Below are positions 2 through 9,399 of a stretch of 28,949 bases of DNA, piece by piece (within the stretch, counting starts at the first letter, position 1; each line of letters starts with the position of its first letter). The position numbers were made by a program, and so were the translations under genes. Where the stretch lies: IMG/VR virus record IMGVR_UViG_3300022198_003044, positions 1 through 28,949 of that record. One strand, 5' to 3'. This DNA comes from a virus. Below the pieces are notes generated by a model. It searched no databases. It had not been told where the DNA came from and saw nothing but the letters and a program-made list of their open reading frames with translations.

Positions 2-544
2 CCCTCACGTTCCGGGGGTGCTGGAGTCGGAATGTTTTGGCTGGCTCAGTGCGACTGCGGAGTCATTAAGGAAATTCGAGGTTCTGACGTGGCAGCAGGC
101 CGCATCAAGACCTGTGGAAAGTGCGAGTATCACTCGGCAATTCTAGAAACTAGACCCGTCAAAGAGACCAAAAAAGACGTAGGAGCACGACTTCAGCTCC
201 GCCGCTACATTAGTTCAGCCCTAAAGCGCAAGATATCATGGCTCCTAACCCCAGAACAATTCAACGAAATCATCGCCCAAGACTGTACCTACTGCGGGGC
301 ATCTCCGAGGGGTTACAGGTCCCAGGCCAAGAACCGGCGCAGAGGTAATATAACGACTCTCATGAACGGCATCGACCGAGTCTCCAGTACCGAAGGCTAC
401 ACACTCGCCAACACCGTCCCCTGTTGCAGCACTTGCAACCGCATGAAGATGGCCATGGACGCTGATGTCTTCATTAACCAATGCCGCAAGATTACTGAAA
501 GAATGAACGAGGCTCAAAAACTTCTTGACGAAACTAAGAAATAA
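2..544 (+). CDS. HNH homing-type endonuclease, 5' end probably outside window
   Basis: Likely a DNA-cutting HNH (His-Me finger) nuclease of the kind common in phages. Counting from the first in-window ATG at 32, a zinc-ribbon-like start (CDCG at 7-10, TCGKC at 27-31) is followed by the nuclease core: CTYCG at 85-89, NGIDRV at 112-117, GYTLANTVPCC at 122-132 and CNRMK at 135-139. C85/C88 and C132/C135 would hold a structural zinc. NGIDR replaces the classical His-containing motif, as in many phage members. The frame is open upstream to base 2. Family members usually carry a further N-terminal segment before CDCG, so the true start is probably outside the window. ATG 32 has a GGAG five bases upstream and is the alternative. 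HNH genes beside terminases can assist packaging; others are mobile homing enzymes. Which applies here is not shown. Confidence 0.85.
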   Translation, partial: PSRSGGAGVGMFWLAQCDCGVIKEIRGSDVAAGRIKTCGKCEYHSAILETRPVKETKKDVGARLQLRRYISSALKRKISWLLTPEQFNEIIAQDCTYCGASPRGYRSQAKNRRRGNITTLMNGIDRVSSTEGYTLANTVPCCSTCNRMKMAMDADVFINQCRKITERMNEAQKLLDETKK

Positions 545-553
545 TGGCATCAT
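525..553 (+). promoter_or_regulatory. Weak candidate sigma70 promoter reading into the noncoding block
   Basis: TTGACG (525-530) and CATCAT (548-553) are separated by 17 bases, matching the consensus at 5/6 and 4/6 positions. It sits at the end of the HNH gene and would transcribe the noncoding region 560-1119. This is a sequence match only and could be chance. Confidence 0.25.
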
Positions 554-1119
554 CAAAGGTGACTTGGATATACTGAGTCATCGGGTTGTGGAATCCCGAC
601 TACCGGGCGAAGAAGTCGCTGTTGAGCCAGTAATAAACTGGTAGCCCCTAGCCTGCAGGTCACAAGGCCCCACAATTCGAGACAGTTTCTTAGAGCGATT
701 GCATGGAACCGGAAGGTGTTGTTAGTGACTTCGTTCACCGCTTCGCCCTCCTCACGCAGAGCCACCAGCGGTAAACTGGTGGAGAGTACGGCAAGCAACC
801 CGGCCATCCTAGCGACAAGAAACAATAGCCTTACCCCCTCAACCCCTAGCCCAAGCTAGCCACGGTTCGTCGGTGCTAACCCAGCTACCGAAACCAAGAG
901 CAAGAAAGGTCAGGGCGAGAGACCCCCCAGAGAGCAGGTCATACCAGCAAGGATATGATAGCGGGGGAGTAAAAAGGGGCACTATCTAGTACCAAGATAG
1001 TTGCAGAGCTAGTCGCAGCTAACAAGTCCGGTACGGGACTAGTTAGTTTCTATCAAGTACCAGTCCGGACTTGACAAGTCTGGTACTTACTAGTAAGTTT
1101 CTAGTAAGGAGCTATCATC
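545..1119 (+). other. Structured noncoding region upstream of small terminase
   Basis: No convincing gene lies in these 575 bases, but the stretch is dense in stem-loops. Seen directly: TCGGG/CCCGA (581-585/595-599); CCAGT/ACTGG (627-631/637-641); CCACCAG/CTGGTGG (762-768/776-782); CTAGC/GCTAG (846-850/855-859); a long arm GGTT-TCGGT-GCT/AGC-ACCGA-AACC (864-895); a nested arm CCCCC (923-927)/GGGGG (963-967) enclosing TCATACC/GG(a)TATGA (939-945/951-958); ACTATCT/AGATAGT (981-987/995-1001); CTAAC-a-AGTCC/GGACT-a-GTTAG (1019-1046); and AAGTACCAG/CTGGTACTT (1055-1063/1080-1088). CTTACTAGTAAG at 1086-1097 is a perfect palindrome. Candidate roles are a large structured phage RNA, a packaging or terminus site, or a regulatory leader of the terminase operon. 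I could not match it to a named RNA family. Confidence 0.6.
1071..1099 (+). promoter_or_regulatory. Candidate promoter before small terminase
   Basis: A perfect TTGACA (1071-1076) is followed after 17 bases by TAAGTT (1094-1099), a poor -10 with 3/6 matches. A transcript would start close to the AAGGAG ribosome site at 1106-1111, leaving almost no leader, so the assignment is doubtful. The TTGACA overlaps the AAGTACCAG/CTGGTACTT hairpin. Confidence 0.25.
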
Positions 1120-1701
1120 ATGTCGTCTCACTTGAAGAACATCAGCAAGGTTCTTGCCGTCGCCAGTCAAGACATAGTGTTCGCGCCGACGCCCGAAATG
1201 CGCCGGGCCAAGGCCGCTTTCTGGTCCAGCCTCGAAGGCACGCCCGATGGTGACCTGGCCGAGAACTTGACCCTGGCCGCCGCCACGCAAATGGGGGCCG
1301 ATAAGAAGCTCAGTCGCTGGTGGAGCATCCCCGGGTTCTCGGACTGGTGGCAGAACAAAGAAGAGTTCAAGCAACGGATGGAGTACCTCGCTCAGTTGGC
1401 ACTTGACACATTAGAGGGTGTCTTGTCAGACCCAGATGCCAACACGACTGCCAAAGTAAACTCTGCCAAACTCGTTCTCGAAGCCGCCAATAAGATGCCA
1501 AAAAGACAGGCCGAAGAGAGTGTGGACCACAAGCTTGCCGGTATGTCTCGGAATGAATTGGAAGAATACGTCCGGACCCGGATGAAATACTTGACACCCT
1601 CCGTTTCCTTTGATAAAGTCGAGGGTACTGTAGGAGTGTCTGAGAGCGATGCTGAAACAAGGTCTACAAGAAGTACTTCTGAAGGAAGCGCCGACAAGTA
1701 G
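1120..1701 (+). CDS. terS: Terminase small subunit
   Basis: This is likely the DNA-recognition subunit of the packaging motor. The 193-aa protein shows the pattern of phage small terminases: an N-terminal helical segment, the tryptophan-rich core RWWSIPGFSDWWQNKEEF (about residues 66-83), a helical EYLAQLALDTLEGVLSDP stretch, then KVNSAKLVLEAANKMPKR, the helix typical before the C-terminal tail. The last 35 residues are Ser/Thr/Asp-rich and probably disordered; family tails of this kind contact the large subunit. AAGGAG (1106-1111) lies 8 bases upstream of ATG 1120, fixing the start. The gene overlaps the next one by 53 bases. The large subunit is not adjacent but about 3.9 kb downstream. The identification rests on motif pattern and position. 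Confidence 0.8.
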   Translation: MSSHLKNISKVLAVASQDIVFAPTPEMRRAKAAFWSSLEGTPDGDLAENLTLAAATQMGADKKLSRWWSIPGFSDWWQNKEEFKQRMEYLAQLALDTLEGVLSDPDANTTAKVNSAKLVLEAANKMPKRQAEESVDHKLAGMSRNELEEYVRTRMKYLTPSVSFDKVEGTVGVSESDAETRSTRSTSEGSADK

Positions 1702-2887: not shown

Positions 2888-5155
2888 ATGGCACAGATTA
2901 AAAAGGGCTTTATCGCCCCGAACGCCATCGACGGGAGCAAACTGCGGCTCCTGAACAACGAGGCGATTCGGGCACTAGCAGCGGACGGTAGTGATGTCGA
3001 GTTGATGAAAATCGACCTCGACAGTGTTCTCCAATTCTTGAGAGTACCTCAAGTTTCTTCAGACCCCACGTCAGGAAATGACTTAGCGCGTAAGAGCTAC
3101 ACCGATAACTACACTGATACAGCAGTGGCAGCTGAGCAATCAGCTCGCGAATCAGCAATCAACTCACTGCAATCAGCAGTAAACAGCCTGTCATTAGACA
3201 GTCTTACAGACGTTACAATGTCAAGTCCTGGTAGCGGCGATGTTCTCCGTTACGACGGATTGTATTGGATTAAAGAAACTCCATCGGAAGAGCGTCAAGT
3301 TAGTTCTGGCGGAGGCGGAAGCACTCAGACAATTAGTTTTTTAGATGAAACACCTGGCACGCTAGAAACTCAGGCCCCGATTGATAACTGGTCGCCAACT
3401 ACAGAAAAAAATGGACAAACTTTTGGTGGTGTTAGTGGTCAACTAACTTCTTTTACTTGGGTACTTAGACGACCTTCATCAACAGTTTCTGGTAGTTTAA
3501 AAGTTCTTATTTACGAATATAATAGCACTACAAGACAGCCAACAGGGGATGTTCTTGCTACATCTGACTTGATAGCTAAACAAACATTACCAATATCTAG
3601 CACTGTAGATACAAATGTTCAATTTGTGTTTTCTTCACCACCAACACTAGACAGTGCTAAAAAATACGTAGCATTTATTGCCGCAGAAAATGCTTCCAGT
3701 AGTGGTATGTATGACGTAGTTGCTTATCGTTCTTGGTACGACTATAACGGATATGATAGGATTAACTTTAACGGTGCTGAATGGTCTTACGGAAACCAGT
3801 CGTTCCGCCACATATACACAGTACAAACTGGTGGAGGACAATCAAGTCCTGTCGGTAATTTGATTATTCAATCTAATGTCGATGGATTCCTTGACGAATC
3901 TTTCCTTCAATACAACGTCAACTTTGGTGACAATAAGCTGAGTGGAGTTTCCGCTCCTGAAGCTGGAACTGATGCAGCCAACAAAACCTGGGTGGAAGGT
4001 CAAGTTGCAGCAGAACAATCTGCTCGTGAAACTGCTGATTCTAACCTACAAGGTGCCATTGACGTTGAAAAGGGTCGTATTGATGCGATTCTTCTCGCTG
4101 CTGACGCTGACAAAGACTCGTTCGCTGAGATTGTCCAGCTCATCAACAGCGTAGATACCGACAATGACAGTGCTTTTGCTAGCTATGTTTTAAGCAACGA
4201 CGCTGCCTTGGCGCAAGAAGTGTCAAACCGCCAAGCCGGTGACAGCGCTCTTCAGTCAAACCTTGATGCCGAAGAATCTGCCCGCGAAGCAGCTGACTCT
4301 ACTCTACAAAGCAACATCGATGCCGAAGCCGCCGCTCGTTTGGCTGCTGACAACGACCTGCAAGACGCCATTGACCAAGAAGTCAGTGCCCGCCAAGCGG
4401 CTGTTTCTGCTGAAGAATCAGCTCGTCAAAGCGCAATTAGTGCAGAACAAGCTGCACGTCAAGCAGAAGATGCTGCCCTTGATGCCCGTCTCGATGTTCT
4501 CGAAGCTGACCCAACAACCAAAACGTACGTTGATGAAGCAGACCAAGACCTCCAAGACCAAATCGACGCTTTGGTTATTTCTACTGGAGGCGATACTGCT
4601 GCTGAAGCCGCGCTTCGGCTTGCTGGTGATGCCAATCTTCAGTCTCAAGTTGATACAGAAAAAGCTCGTATTGACGCGATTTTGAACGCAGCCACTGCCG
4701 ATGCAGATTCGTTCAAAGAAATTGTTGACCTCATCAACAGCGTTGACACTGAAAATGACTCTGCCTTTGCCAGCTATGTCCTGAGCAATAACGCTGCCCT
4801 GGCCGCGGAACAAGCTGCACGTGAAGCAGCCGATGCTGCTGAGCAAGCTGCTCGTGAAGCCGCTGACAGTGCCTTGGACGTTCGCGTTGGTGCCTTGGAA
4901 GCAGTTGTTGATGGCCGCGCCAAGTTCACGATTACACAAACTGACTTGGACAATCAGTACCTTGACCTGTCACACGAAGCCAAACCAGACAGCACATTCA
5001 TGTTCTACGGTCCTCTGTACTTGCATGAAGGTGACGATTACACCGTGTCCACAGTCGGTGGCGTCAGCCGCTTGGCCTTCTCCGGTCGTATCGCTTCTGG
5101 TCAGCCTAGCCAACCCATCGTTGGTGATGTCATTTACGTTCGTTACAAGTACTAA
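2888..5155 (+). CDS. Long coiled-coil tail fibre protein
   Basis: A 755-aa tail fibre. Residues 1-75 form a virion-attachment-type start (MAQIKKGFIAPNAIDGSKLR, then SSDPTSGNDLARKSYTDN, a common fibre linker). Residues ~145-320 are a Gly/Ser-flanked beta sandwich resembling a carbohydrate-binding or lectin domain; the DNA here (about 3320-3840) is AT-richer than the rest. Residues ~370-675 are a long Ala/Glu/Gln/Asp coiled coil with repeated AEQ(S/A)AREAADS units and a duplicated 49-residue segment (394-442 and 591-639, EK.RIDAIL to SYVLSN.AALA). The end (FTITQTDLDNQYLDLSHE ... GDVIYVRYKY) is the module shared with the preceding gene. GAAGGG eight bases upstream supports ATG 2888. The gene ends at a strong terminator. 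Fibre identity is secure; receptor and exact place on the tail are unknown. Confidence 0.88.
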   Translation: MAQIKKGFIAPNAIDGSKLRLLNNEAIRALAADGSDVELMKIDLDSVLQFLRVPQVSSDPTSGNDLARKSYTDNYTDTAVAAEQSARESAINSLQSAVNSLSLDSLTDVTMSSPGSGDVLRYDGLYWIKETPSEERQVSSGGGGSTQTISFLDETPGTLETQAPIDNWSPTTEKNGQTFGGVSGQLTSFTWVLRRPSSTVSGSLKVLIYEYNSTTRQPTGDVLATSDLIAKQTLPISSTVDTNVQFVFSSPPTLDSAKKYVAFIAAENASSSGMYDVVAYRSWYDYNGYDRINFNGAEWSYGNQSFRHIYTVQTGGGQSSPVGNLIIQSNVDGFLDESFLQYNVNFGDNKLSGVSAPEAGTDAANKTWVEGQVAAEQSARETADSNLQGAIDVEKGRIDAILLAADADKDSFAEIVQLINSVDTDNDSAFASYVLSNDAALAQEVSNRQAGDSALQSNLDAEESAREAADSTLQSNIDAEAAARLAADNDLQDAIDQEVSARQAAVSAEESARQSAISAEQAARQAEDAALDARLDVLEADPTTKTYVDEADQDLQDQIDALVISTGGDTAAEAALRLAGDANLQSQVDTEKARIDAILNAATADADSFKEIVDLINSVDTENDSAFASYVLSNNAALAAEQAAREAADAAEQAAREAADSALDVRVGALEAVVDGRAKFTITQTDLDNQYLDLSHEAKPDSTFMFYGPLYLHEGDDYTVSTVGGVSRLAFSGRIASGQPSQPIVGDVIYVRYKY
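4067..4804 (+). repeat. Duplicated 147-nt fibre segment (copies at 4067-4213 and 4658-4804)
   Basis: Two 49-codon stretches of the coiled-coil fibre encode nearly the same peptide, beginning EKxRIDAIL and ending SYVLSNxAALA. They are separated by 444 bases of degenerate heptad repeats. Equal length and in-frame placement indicate an internal duplication. Many synonymous differences imply it is old or maintained by selection on the protein. Confidence 0.85.
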
Positions 5156-5645: not shown

Positions 5646-7100
5646 ATGTCCGCTGTGTCTGACAAATTATTCCTTGCCGCTCTGGAGAAGCTCGAAAAGC
5701 TCCGGAAGCAGGAGTGTTTTGACCCGGCAAACCCAGACAGTAAGCCTACTCCAGCTCAGCAACAAGTCATTGACGATATTAGTAAGCACAAGTTTCAGAT
5801 TATACGAGCGGGAAATCAATCAGGAAAATCACAGACTTGCGCCAGAATCCTTACCTGGGTACTGACAGAAACTCACCCGACATGGAAAAGACCCGCGAAC
5901 TGGGGCAATGAGCCACTCTTGGCTGTGGTCTGCGGCAGGTCCGGCAAGCAAATCGAAGAATCACTACTGCCCAAGATACGGTCCTACCTAGAACCCGGCA
6001 CCTACAAAGAAGTCCGCATCGGTAACATCATCCAACGTCTTGAGCTGGACAGCGGCAATAAGATAGTTTTTCAGTCCCTCGAAAACCCGAACATGGCCCG
6101 AGAACGACTCCAGTCTTACGTGGCTCATATTGTGTGGGTGGACGAGTTGCCTCCGACTGTAGAAGTCTTGAGCGAAGCTATGATACGCCGCCAAGCCCGG
6201 GACGGGTTCTTTCTTGCGTCCTTTACTCCCCTTGTTCGCAACATCAAAGTGCAAAAATTTGTCGATGCCCTAGAAGAACCGCTGGCCAAGACCTACCGCT
6301 TCAAGATGCTTGACAATCCTCTCTATTCTGACCCCCAGCGTAGAGATGACGTATTGACTTCATTGGCACATTTGCCAGAACATGTCAGAAATAGTCGTCT
6401 CTATGGCGACTGGATGAGTGACGACAACGCGGTATACCAACTCAATACCGACACCATGGTAGAAATGCCGCAGAATTATAGCCCGCTCTGGCGACATGTT
6501 GAGTCAGTGGACCCCGCGTCCAGCTCCGCGTTAGGATACACGCTCTGGGCCGAAGACCCGAACACGGGAATATGGTACTGCATCAAGGCCGAGTACGTCA
6601 AAGGTGTCTTTGTCCCCACTGAAATCGTGAACACGGTGCAAAAACTCTCCTACGGTCACAATATAGTCAAGCGCGTGTCTGATACTGAGCCTTGGTTTGT
6701 ACACCAAGCAGCACAAATGGGCATCAAGTACACAGCCGTCTACGACAAAGCAGGCCGCAAGATTGAAATGATAAAAAATCTACAGCAGGCTCTGGGGTCC
6801 AAAGTGCGAATAGCCCCACATTGTGAGGCGCTGATAGAGGAACTCTCGGGCATGCGCTGGTCTGAGAGCAAAGAAAACAAAATAGTGTCCAGTAATGACT
6901 ATCACTTACACGATACCGCTGCTTACTTCATTGACAACCTCCCGAAAAGAGAAGTTCCAATACCCGCCAACATGACATGGCAAAGTGCTCTTTGGCAACA
7001 GCACACCCAGCGCAAAGTAGCCGAAGAAACTCAACGCCTTAAAGTCGCAAGACAAGCCTTAGCTCGAAGGGGAAGAAATTATGCGCGACGCTCCAGGTAA
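5646..7100 (+). CDS. terL: Terminase large subunit (ATPase and nuclease)
   Basis: Packaging motor that hydrolyses ATP to pump DNA into the prohead and cuts concatemers. The 484-aa protein has Walker A GNQSGKS (56-62), Walker B HIVWVDE (161-167), the coupling-type motif ASFTP (191-195) and, after EHVRNSRLYGDW, a C-terminal RNase H-like nuclease domain. VESVDPA supplies a probable catalytic Asp (289), and YHLHDTAAYFID (419-430) supplies the late acidic residue D423. The extreme C-terminus is Arg/Lys-rich and probably binds DNA or TerS. AGAGGA lies just upstream of ATG 5646. The end overlaps the next gene by 20 bases. It is unusually distant from TerS, with three virion genes and a terminator in between. 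Confidence 0.95.
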   Translation: MSAVSDKLFLAALEKLEKLRKQECFDPANPDSKPTPAQQQVIDDISKHKFQIIRAGNQSGKSQTCARILTWVLTETHPTWKRPANWGNEPLLAVVCGRSGKQIEESLLPKIRSYLEPGTYKEVRIGNIIQRLELDSGNKIVFQSLENPNMARERLQSYVAHIVWVDELPPTVEVLSEAMIRRQARDGFFLASFTPLVRNIKVQKFVDALEEPLAKTYRFKMLDNPLYSDPQRRDDVLTSLAHLPEHVRNSRLYGDWMSDDNAVYQLNTDTMVEMPQNYSPLWRHVESVDPASSSALGYTLWAEDPNTGIWYCIKAEYVKGVFVPTEIVNTVQKLSYGHNIVKRVSDTEPWFVHQAAQMGIKYTAVYDKAGRKIEMIKNLQQALGSKVRIAPHCEALIEELSGMRWSESKENKIVSSNDYHLHDTAAYFIDNLPKREVPIPANMTWQSALWQQHTQRKVAEETQRLKVARQALARRGRNYARRSR

Positions 7101-7368: not shown

Positions 7369-9399
7369 ATGGCCATAAAGATTACAGCTTGGGACGATGC
7401 TCTCGCTTCAAAGAATATCATGAAGCGCTTTGAGGACGCCTCACAACACCGCAAAGATATGGAAATCCGCTGGGCCGCCAATGAACGGTCGGTGTATCGT
7501 ACCAGTAACTTTGACTTCAACAACTACGCATCAGCAATGATAGATGGCGTAGACCAGTCCCCGGCTGACAGCAATAATGTTTATGTGTTCAAGAACTTGC
7601 GCTTTCTTCATGCGCAAATGTCCGCCAATCCGCCAAGTGTCGTTTTCAAACCTTCGACCTCAGACCAAGAAGACCACAGGCGTGCTGATGCTGCTGACCG
7701 CGTTGCTCGCTGGGCCATACGCCAATATCAGATGCAAGAAAACTTTGACCAGTTGACACTCAGTACTTTGGTCTACGGCACCGGAATTGCCAAGACTATA
7801 TGGGACAGTAACAAGGGTGACATCATTGAGTTCAATGAGGAAAGTGGAGAAGTCAAGCTAGAGGGTGACATTTCCATTACTGTGCCCTTTATATGGAATA
7901 TCTTTCTGGACCCAGATGCTCGGTCGTGGAAGGACGTGAAGTGGATTATCGAGCGCGTGTACATGGACTACGACGAAGCTTGTACCATGTGGCCCGACAA
8001 GAAAGAAGAGTTGACTGCTGCTAAAATGTCAGAAAAGGAAGAGGCCACCAGCAAGTGGGGTACAAATAAGTCTGCCCTAGCCGATACCAAATACAACAGC
8101 GTAGAACTCTTACAGTATTGGGAAACTGGACTACCCAGTAACGGGTACATGGGCCGATTCTGTCTCATGACCAGCGCTGGAAAGGTGATTGAGCCCTGCC
8201 GTCCTTCGCCCTTTCGCTTCAAGAAAGCTGGAGCTGCTCGTCGCATTGTCGAGTCTGACTTGCCCGAGGACGTTATCGAAGAGCGTCTCAAGAAAATACC
8301 CGAGCAAGCTGGACTACCCTATCACATCCTGACAGACATTGACGTGTCCAACACGCCCTATGGTCGTTCTGCTGTCGAGTACGTGTCAATACTTCAAGAC
8401 AATGTGCTCAAGATTGACACCGCTACTATGGACAACATTTACGCTCACGGCGCTGCTCGGCTTGTTGTCAACGACGCCGCCGAAGTAGACACGTCCTTGT
8501 CTAATAGTCCCTGGGATGTCATCAAAGTGTCAGGCAATCAAACTCCATACTTCATGGAAGTGCCGCAGCTCATGCCCGAGATGGTCACGACCAGGATGAG
8601 CCAAATCCAAGGCATCAATGACGGAATGGGTGTAAATGATGCTATGTTTGGTATTCAAAAAAGAGAGACCTCTGGCACGTCAATGAACTACGCGACAAAT
8701 CAAGGCAACATGATAAGGCGTAGAATCTTCAATAAATACGTGCTTGTTGTCGAGTCTGTGTACAAAGCACTCTTAAACTTGATAGTAAAGCACTGGTCTA
8801 TAGAGCGTAGCATTAGTGTTCTTGGTCGAGAAAATGCCTTAGAGTCCGTAGACTTGAAGGGTACTGACGTAGACGGTGGCTATGACGTTATTGGTGAGTA
8901 CGGCGTGTCCTTGTCTCTTGACCCCATGAGTCGTCGTGAAGAAATCCTCATGATGCAGCCTCTCTTTGAGAAGGCCGGAGTACCAGCCCGCACCAGCCTC
9001 AAGCTCATGAAGCTCAATGAACTCGAAGGCATGTACGACAGACTGGCCCTGGCAGAGAATCGCCAGAAAGAAATCTTTGACGAAATGATTGCTACAGGTC
9101 GCTACCTTCCACCCGAAGACCTCATGGACCACGAGAACATGATATCGTGGGCACTAGAATATTTCATGACTCAGGAGTTTCAATCATTAGAGCCAGACAT
9201 GCGCGAGATGTGCAAGCAGCACATCCGAGACCGAGTACTAGTCGCTGCTCAAGAAAAGGCGGCACTCACCGGCGGAGGCGGTCAAGCCGCAGCAATGCCA
9301 GGACAAACTCTTCCTCCGGGTCCCACACCGGGACTAGAGGGAGCCCCCGCTCCAGAACCCGGACAACCCGCCGGCGTACCCCCCATGGTAAATCTATGA
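7369..9399 (+). CDS. Portal protein
   Basis: Probable dodecameric channel at the unique capsid vertex. The 676-aa length and features fit the larger podovirus portals: an N-terminal helical region with HRKDMEIRWAANERSVYR, then NVYVFKNLRFLHAQMSANPP, the common portal feature VPFIWNIFLDPDARSWKDVK, a long central helix region around ISILQDNVLKIDTATMDNIYAHGAAR-type sequence, and a Met-rich C-terminal helix. The last ~45 residues are Gly/Pro/Ala-rich and probably disordered (starting GGGGQAAAMPGQTLPPGPTP). Its stop overlaps the peptidase start (ATGA). Location between large terminase and scaffold/capsid agrees. Assignment is by overall pattern and gene order. Confidence 0.85.
   Translation: MAIKITAWDDALASKNIMKRFEDASQHRKDMEIRWAANERSVYRTSNFDFNNYASAMIDGVDQSPADSNNVYVFKNLRFLHAQMSANPPSVVFKPSTSDQEDHRRADAADRVARWAIRQYQMQENFDQLTLSTLVYGTGIAKTIWDSNKGDIIEFNEESGEVKLEGDISITVPFIWNIFLDPDARSWKDVKWIIERVYMDYDEACTMWPDKKEELTAAKMSEKEEATSKWGTNKSALADTKYNSVELLQYWETGLPSNGYMGRFCLMTSAGKVIEPCRPSPFRFKKAGAARRIVESDLPEDVIEERLKKIPEQAGLPYHILTDIDVSNTPYGRSAVEYVSILQDNVLKIDTATMDNIYAHGAARLVVNDAAEVDTSLSNSPWDVIKVSGNQTPYFMEVPQLMPEMVTTRMSQIQGINDGMGVNDAMFGIQKRETSGTSMNYATNQGNMIRRRIFNKYVLVVESVYKALLNLIVKHWSIERSISVLGRENALESVDLKGTDVDGGYDVIGEYGVSLSLDPMSRREEILMMQPLFEKAGVPARTSLKLMKLNELEGMYDRLALAENRQKEIFDEMIATGRYLPPEDLMDHENMISWALEYFMTQEFQSLEPDMREMCKQHIRDRVLVAAQEKAALTGGGGQAAAMPGQTLPPGPTPGLEGAPAPEPGQPAGVPPMVNL

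Follow-up and report, generated by a model that had tools for sequence, protein, structure and literature searches.

What does a stretch of 575 ORF-poor nucleotides in front of a putative packaging gene encode? The window analysed here, a contig of 28.9 kb (28,949 nt) from an uncultured virus, carries such a gap at positions 545-1119, between the stop of an HNH-like gene at 544 and the start of a putative small terminase gene (terS) at 1120. Apart from one ORF that begins at 1071 and overlaps terS, no ORF of at least 50 amino acids was found on the + strand of the gap, in agreement with the original prediction that it is free of genes. The upstream gene (2..544, + strand), the 5' end of which is cut by the window edge, encodes an HNH/endonuclease-VII-like protein (phrog_1035, E 3e-17) with conserved Cys/His residues and an NGIDR..CC..CN motif; domain and family searches detected no RuvC or other Cas9-like domain in it. 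The downstream gene (1120..1701, + strand) is putatively labelled terS by its position, and it sits before the TerL gene in relatives too. Family, structure and fold searches with the putative TerS gave no family match and no convincing fold match, the predicted structure used as fold-search query being of low confidence (pLDDT 64). Rightward of the HNH gene, the gap and the putative terS follow two small genes, the gene of a 755-aa protein (2888-5155), TerL (5646-7100, Terminase_6N) and a portal gene of the P22/SU10 type (7369-9399). Matches to the 755-aa protein among relatives are shuffled and repeated, resembling those of a repeat-bearing virion or appendage protein. Since the genes preceding HNH mostly have the opposite orientation in the two relatives examined further upstream, the HNH gene, the gap and terS head the rightward late operon.

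Relatives were collected by searches of a viral collection with TerL, TerS and orf2. They are without an isolated representative (the best isolate TerL is 23% identical), and a TerL profile had no match in bacterial and archaeal genomes. The order of HNH gene, RNA and terS, with no gene between them, is kept in 13 distinct phages whose putative TerS proteins are 25-79% identical, and the HNH gene adjoins the RNA at all 13 loci. Ten of these phages (the window, L003, L034, L006, L008, L013, L004, L039, L007 and L024) can be aligned over a core of 237-248 nt, the spacing between HNH and TerS being 467-845 nt, while the three more distant members (L079, L082 and L124; TerS identity about 25-44%) share this layout and were aligned by eye. 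The contigs of L006, L039, L082, L003 and the window stop no more than about 2 kb upstream of the RNA core, perhaps because the genome ends there or the assembly broke off. The TerL genes of L024 (7224-9704) and L091 (1711-4182), and also those of L025, L030-L033, L066, L084, L089 and L090, carry an in-frame insertion that follows approximately residue 57; the two insertions tested both match Hint, one also LAGLIDADG, and judging by these matches they are probably inteins. In L017 (298-1272), a pentapeptide-repeat-like ORF (minus strand, 376-1272) with tandem repeats lies near leftward genes.

The conserved core, at 582..823 on the + strand like all elements described below, has the strand order A5 E5 H1a B5 B3 E3 A3 C5 D5 H3a H1b H3b G5 F G3 D3 C3. 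Helix A (582-588 with 673-679) is rich in G-U pairs and paired in 66 of 70 cells, with two-sided change in four pairs, and helix E (604-608 with 651-655; 56/59 cells, two-sided change in five pairs) reaches 7 bp in relatives. Helix H1 (612-619 with 725-732; 69/70 cells, two-sided change in four pairs) crosses A, E, H3, C and D, and the core is therefore pseudoknotted; the loop of H3 (715-718 with 736-739), paired in all 40 cells, contains the 3' strand of H1. The two strands of H1 occur as GAAGTCGC/GTGACTTC, GTATTATC/GATAATAC, GCATTGTC/GACAATGC and GAATCAC/GTGATTC, and in the outlying phages as AAGTTAC/GTAACTT (L079) and AGAAACGTC/GATGTTTCT (L124, 9 bp). The L124 pairing, first assigned by eye, came up again in a descriptor scan in which + strand matches away from the locus did not exceed 7 bp; as a minus-strand control yielded a similar total of matches, weight was placed on the long ones only. 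Hairpin B (627-641, CCAGT/ACTGG) holds the most conserved sequence, CTGTTGNRYCRGTADYRAACYGR. The remaining helices are C (685-689 with 819-823; 49/50 cells, two-sided change in three pairs), D (709-712 with 800-803; 39/40 cells, three pairs) and G (740-747 with 790-796; 59/60 cells, five pairs), the last being capped by hairpin F (762-782, CCACCAG/CTGGTGG, 7 bp).

Over the ten aligned phages the full model comprises 51 pairs, with 478 of 489 cells paired (97.8%) and two-sided compensatory change in 30 pairs, figures that lean towards structure because E, H1, H3, G and the long-range pairing PK2 described below were added by hand alignment. A sequence-only MAFFT alignment, evaluated for helices A, B, C and D without the others, has 98% of cells paired and two-sided changes in 11 of 20 pairs; the covariation score of these helices is 0.439, whereas shuffles scored 0.189 +/- 0.024 and sliding the helices gave no more than 0.097. 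Five 5-bp windows of this alignment, in helices A, B and C, passed a phylogenetic-null filter, and 100 tree-simulated alignments yielded no passing window. This helix-level test was adopted because the per-pair test was underpowered: the ten sequences fall into two main subclades, which limits per-pair power, and the best pair reached E 0.05. RNAalifold alone missed the crossing helices. By folding energy the 3' part stands out (z -3.8) and the core does not (z -0.6). As this measure gave no support for the core, the case for an RNA rests on covariation in relatives. G-U pairs fill 32 of the 489 cells, an A-C mismatch only one; neither a DNA palindrome nor an RNA from the opposite strand would show such a bias, which argues for selection on a + strand RNA, and on these alignments the product is a + strand RNA. 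Both conservation and covariation, whose lack in relatives the original prediction had named as speaking against it, are thus present.

The core is linked to a 3' domain (824..1009), assigned to the same RNA, that contains variable stems, a purine motif, hairpin Y (981-987 with 995-1001) and a second copy of a GCAGAG motif. The link is PK2, in which GCCCC at 644-648, following hairpin B, pairs with GGGGC at 976-980; the pairing covaries and was found in 11 of 11 phages, its partner in the purine motif lying 213-329 nt downstream. The aligned ten show three pair sets, GCCCC/GGGGC, GTACC/GGTAC and CCCCC/GGGGG. Strands taken from different groups match in only 13 of 62 combinations, 8 of these being between groups 1 and 3, and random placements match in 27%. 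PK2 was found post hoc and is therefore weaker than the core helices. Because it joins both parts, core and 3' domain would form a single molecule of at least about 430 nt. The GCAGAG motif is present twice in the window, at 756 and 1003, one copy before hairpin F and one after hairpin Y. It reads GCAGAG in the window and L003 and CAGGAGC, CAGGGGC or CAAGAGC in others, and both copies within a phage usually are the same variant by eye, as would be expected if they were to meet the same partner. All hairpins named in the original prediction were found again (627-641, 762-782 with 7 bp, and arms near 864-895, 923-967, 1019-1046 and 1055-1088). Its proposal that the two CCAG..taaa.CTGG hairpins stem from a duplication did not hold, as the sequence of B is kept in relatives and F is a hairpin with changing sequence.

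In the records searched, a covariance model of the core matched this locus alone, once per genome, and recovered L082, which had been left out of model building, at the right place (E 1e-4); L079 and L124 were recognised by the pseudoknot. A pattern for the conserved hairpin matched 17 viral contigs, and in 14 of these the match lies at this locus. The three extra viral matches, short and local to the pattern, were judged to be chance, as were all 12 short matches of the same kind in a genome pattern scan. Some relatives, L085-L091 among others, lack this RNA. In L085-L091 and in L123, L125, L126, L129, L131, L132, L135 and L138, a small ORF, possibly HTH-like and often preceded by a TTGAC-type promoter, lies directly before terS in the place of the RNA. 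Stretches of about 600 nt poor in ORFs were observed ahead of a small ORF and terS in L026 (180-780, preceded by a TTGACA..TATTAT promoter) and L071 (130-700). Either a different RNA or a diverged one might reside there; covariance-model and comparison searches did not demonstrate a shared fold in these stretches.

A sigma70-type promoter, TTGACA-N16..18-TANNNW, is located 56-71 nt before the core at 8 of 13 loci, against a background of 2% per 110 nt, and a site is present at 12 of 13 loci if TTGACG and looser -10 boxes are allowed; the scan upstream of the core found none in L124. The candidate promoter of the window (525..553, + strand; TTGACG-17-CATCAT) is weak and has the same distance to the core as TTGACA-17-TANNNT in relatives. 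By eye, a hairpin usually follows the expected start of transcription. Between the RNA and terS, no T-run longer than four was found at any locus, so that no intrinsic terminator is evident there. At most loci, palindromes rich in GTAC and CTAG reach up to the ribosome-binding site of terS (1013..1105, + strand, in the window); few are present in L079 and L082.

A search of the window and its relatives against Rfam 15, as proposed at the outset, gave no match at the gathering threshold and nothing credible at E 10, the ROOL and GOLLD models included. Neither did a match emerge from blastn against 50,697 phage records and 72,556 plasmids, and a description of this RNA was not found in the open-licence literature. 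ROOL and GOLLD form homo-oligomeric cages and are often, if not always, encoded near phage tRNA genes. ROOL is a large phage-borne RNA with several pseudoknots and GOLLD a large structured phage-borne RNA expressed around lysis, both of unknown function (PMC12286853). While the new RNA, like ROOL, is large and phage-borne and has several pseudoknots, it matches no Rfam model, precedes terS rather than lying beside tRNAs, and has a shorter conserved core. With GOLLD it has in common that it is large, structured and phage-borne; GOLLD exceeds 800 nt, its model gave no match, and ARAGORN found no tRNA genes in the window. Phage ICP1 produces a noncoding transcript of about 800 nt, its most abundant, at the head of the lysis cluster (PMC7567579), likewise a large ORF-less stretch heading a phage gene cluster, but from another phage with other flanking genes, and the phage records gave no sequence match. 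Judged by model, by sequence and by genomic context, the RNA is none of these three and is previously undescribed. The earlier suggestion of an undescribed large phage RNA is strongly supported by conservation, compensatory changes, the strand-specific G-U pairs, the positioned promoter and the lack of an Rfam match, and judging from the alignments a conserved, pseudoknotted + strand RNA almost certainly exists and folds as described.

With regard to its role, we hypothesize that this large structured RNA of about 430-540 nt, whose multi-pseudoknot core is tied to the 3' domain by the long-range pairing, would be transcribed toward terS from the promoter located where the HNH gene ends. Such an RNA may act in cis on the late transcript, which covers packaging and structural genes. 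It might, for instance, bind RNA polymerase or else a protein of phage or host and thereby let transcription proceed through the long operon, or alternatively control the translation of terS. We infer that a leader acting in cis is the most likely role, a preference that we hold tentatively and at somewhat less than an even chance. It is favoured by the position as immediate 5' leader, the unbroken adjacency to terS and the lack of a terminator before it. The HK022 put RNA is a leader with a cis-acting effect on phage transcription (PMC9378689), which is the role proposed here; put acts on early genes, however, and no match to it was found. Against a cis leader we count that antitermination leaders such as put are far smaller, that the promoter is weak in the window and was not found in L124, that the RNA could regulate in trans, and that L085-L091 and others express terS without it.

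Nearly as likely as the cis leader, at roughly one chance in three, is an ornate RNA acting in trans, ROOL- or GOLLD-like in kind, which would be processed or ended before terS and build up in infected cells to serve as scaffold, cage or RNP. Its size, its own promoter, its pseudoknotted fold and its single copy per genome agree with this, ROOL and GOLLD being such RNAs (PMC12286853) and the ICP1 transcript being so abundant at the head of its cluster (PMC7567579), whereas the missing terminator, the adjacency to terS at 13 loci and the lack of a nearby tRNA cluster speak against it. A role in packaging is unlikely, whether the element is an RNA that binds TerS, HNH or portal or a stretch of DNA recognised by TerS within the palindromes (1013-1105). 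The location between HNH gene and putative terS at all loci and the palindromic stretch before terS would suit such an element, and HNH proteins encoded beside terminases are known to assist packaging in cos phages. The core, however, is no DNA pac or cos site, given its G-U bias (a figure for the core, not for the palindromes), and a packaging start site bound by TerS, as once envisaged, is without support there, where G-U pairs and pseudoknots indicate RNA. Such a site may still lie in the palindrome-rich last 100 nt, although the palindromes are few in L079 and L082. To our knowledge, RNA parts in packaging motors occur in phi29-type motors only. The phi29 pRNA is likewise a phage RNA connected with DNA packaging genes, but it measures 174 nt, belongs to another type of motor than this one with its Terminase_6N TerL and P22/SU10-like portal, and has no Rfam match here. 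Equally improbable would be a new class in which a large pseudoknotted RNA works with HNH and/or TerS as a packaging RNP.

The HNH gene beside the RNA at all loci also brings to mind an intron-like RNA or a guide RNA of the HNH protein, as knotted RNAs are paired with HNH proteins in group I introns and HEARO elements. We regard this as very improbable: no model of such RNAs, HEARO and IsrB-type guides included, matched even at E 10, the helix order is unlike the group I core, the complete terS after the RNA has its own conserved start and N-terminus and thus leaves no exon 1, a promoter lies between the HNH gene and the RNA, and the HNH protein is without a detected Cas9-like domain. The cis-acting leader of the late operon remains the reading that we prefer.

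With this RNA, the short list of large, intricately folded bacterial and phage RNAs, mostly without known function, gains one more member. Its defined fold, likely promoter and invariant place beside packaging genes narrow the candidate roles, and a packaging RNP, if true, would constitute an RNA component of a terminase system for which none is known so far. A clade of uncultured phages of roughly 60 kb thus carries a conserved RNA machinery that was missed by Rfam and by the collection of phage isolates.
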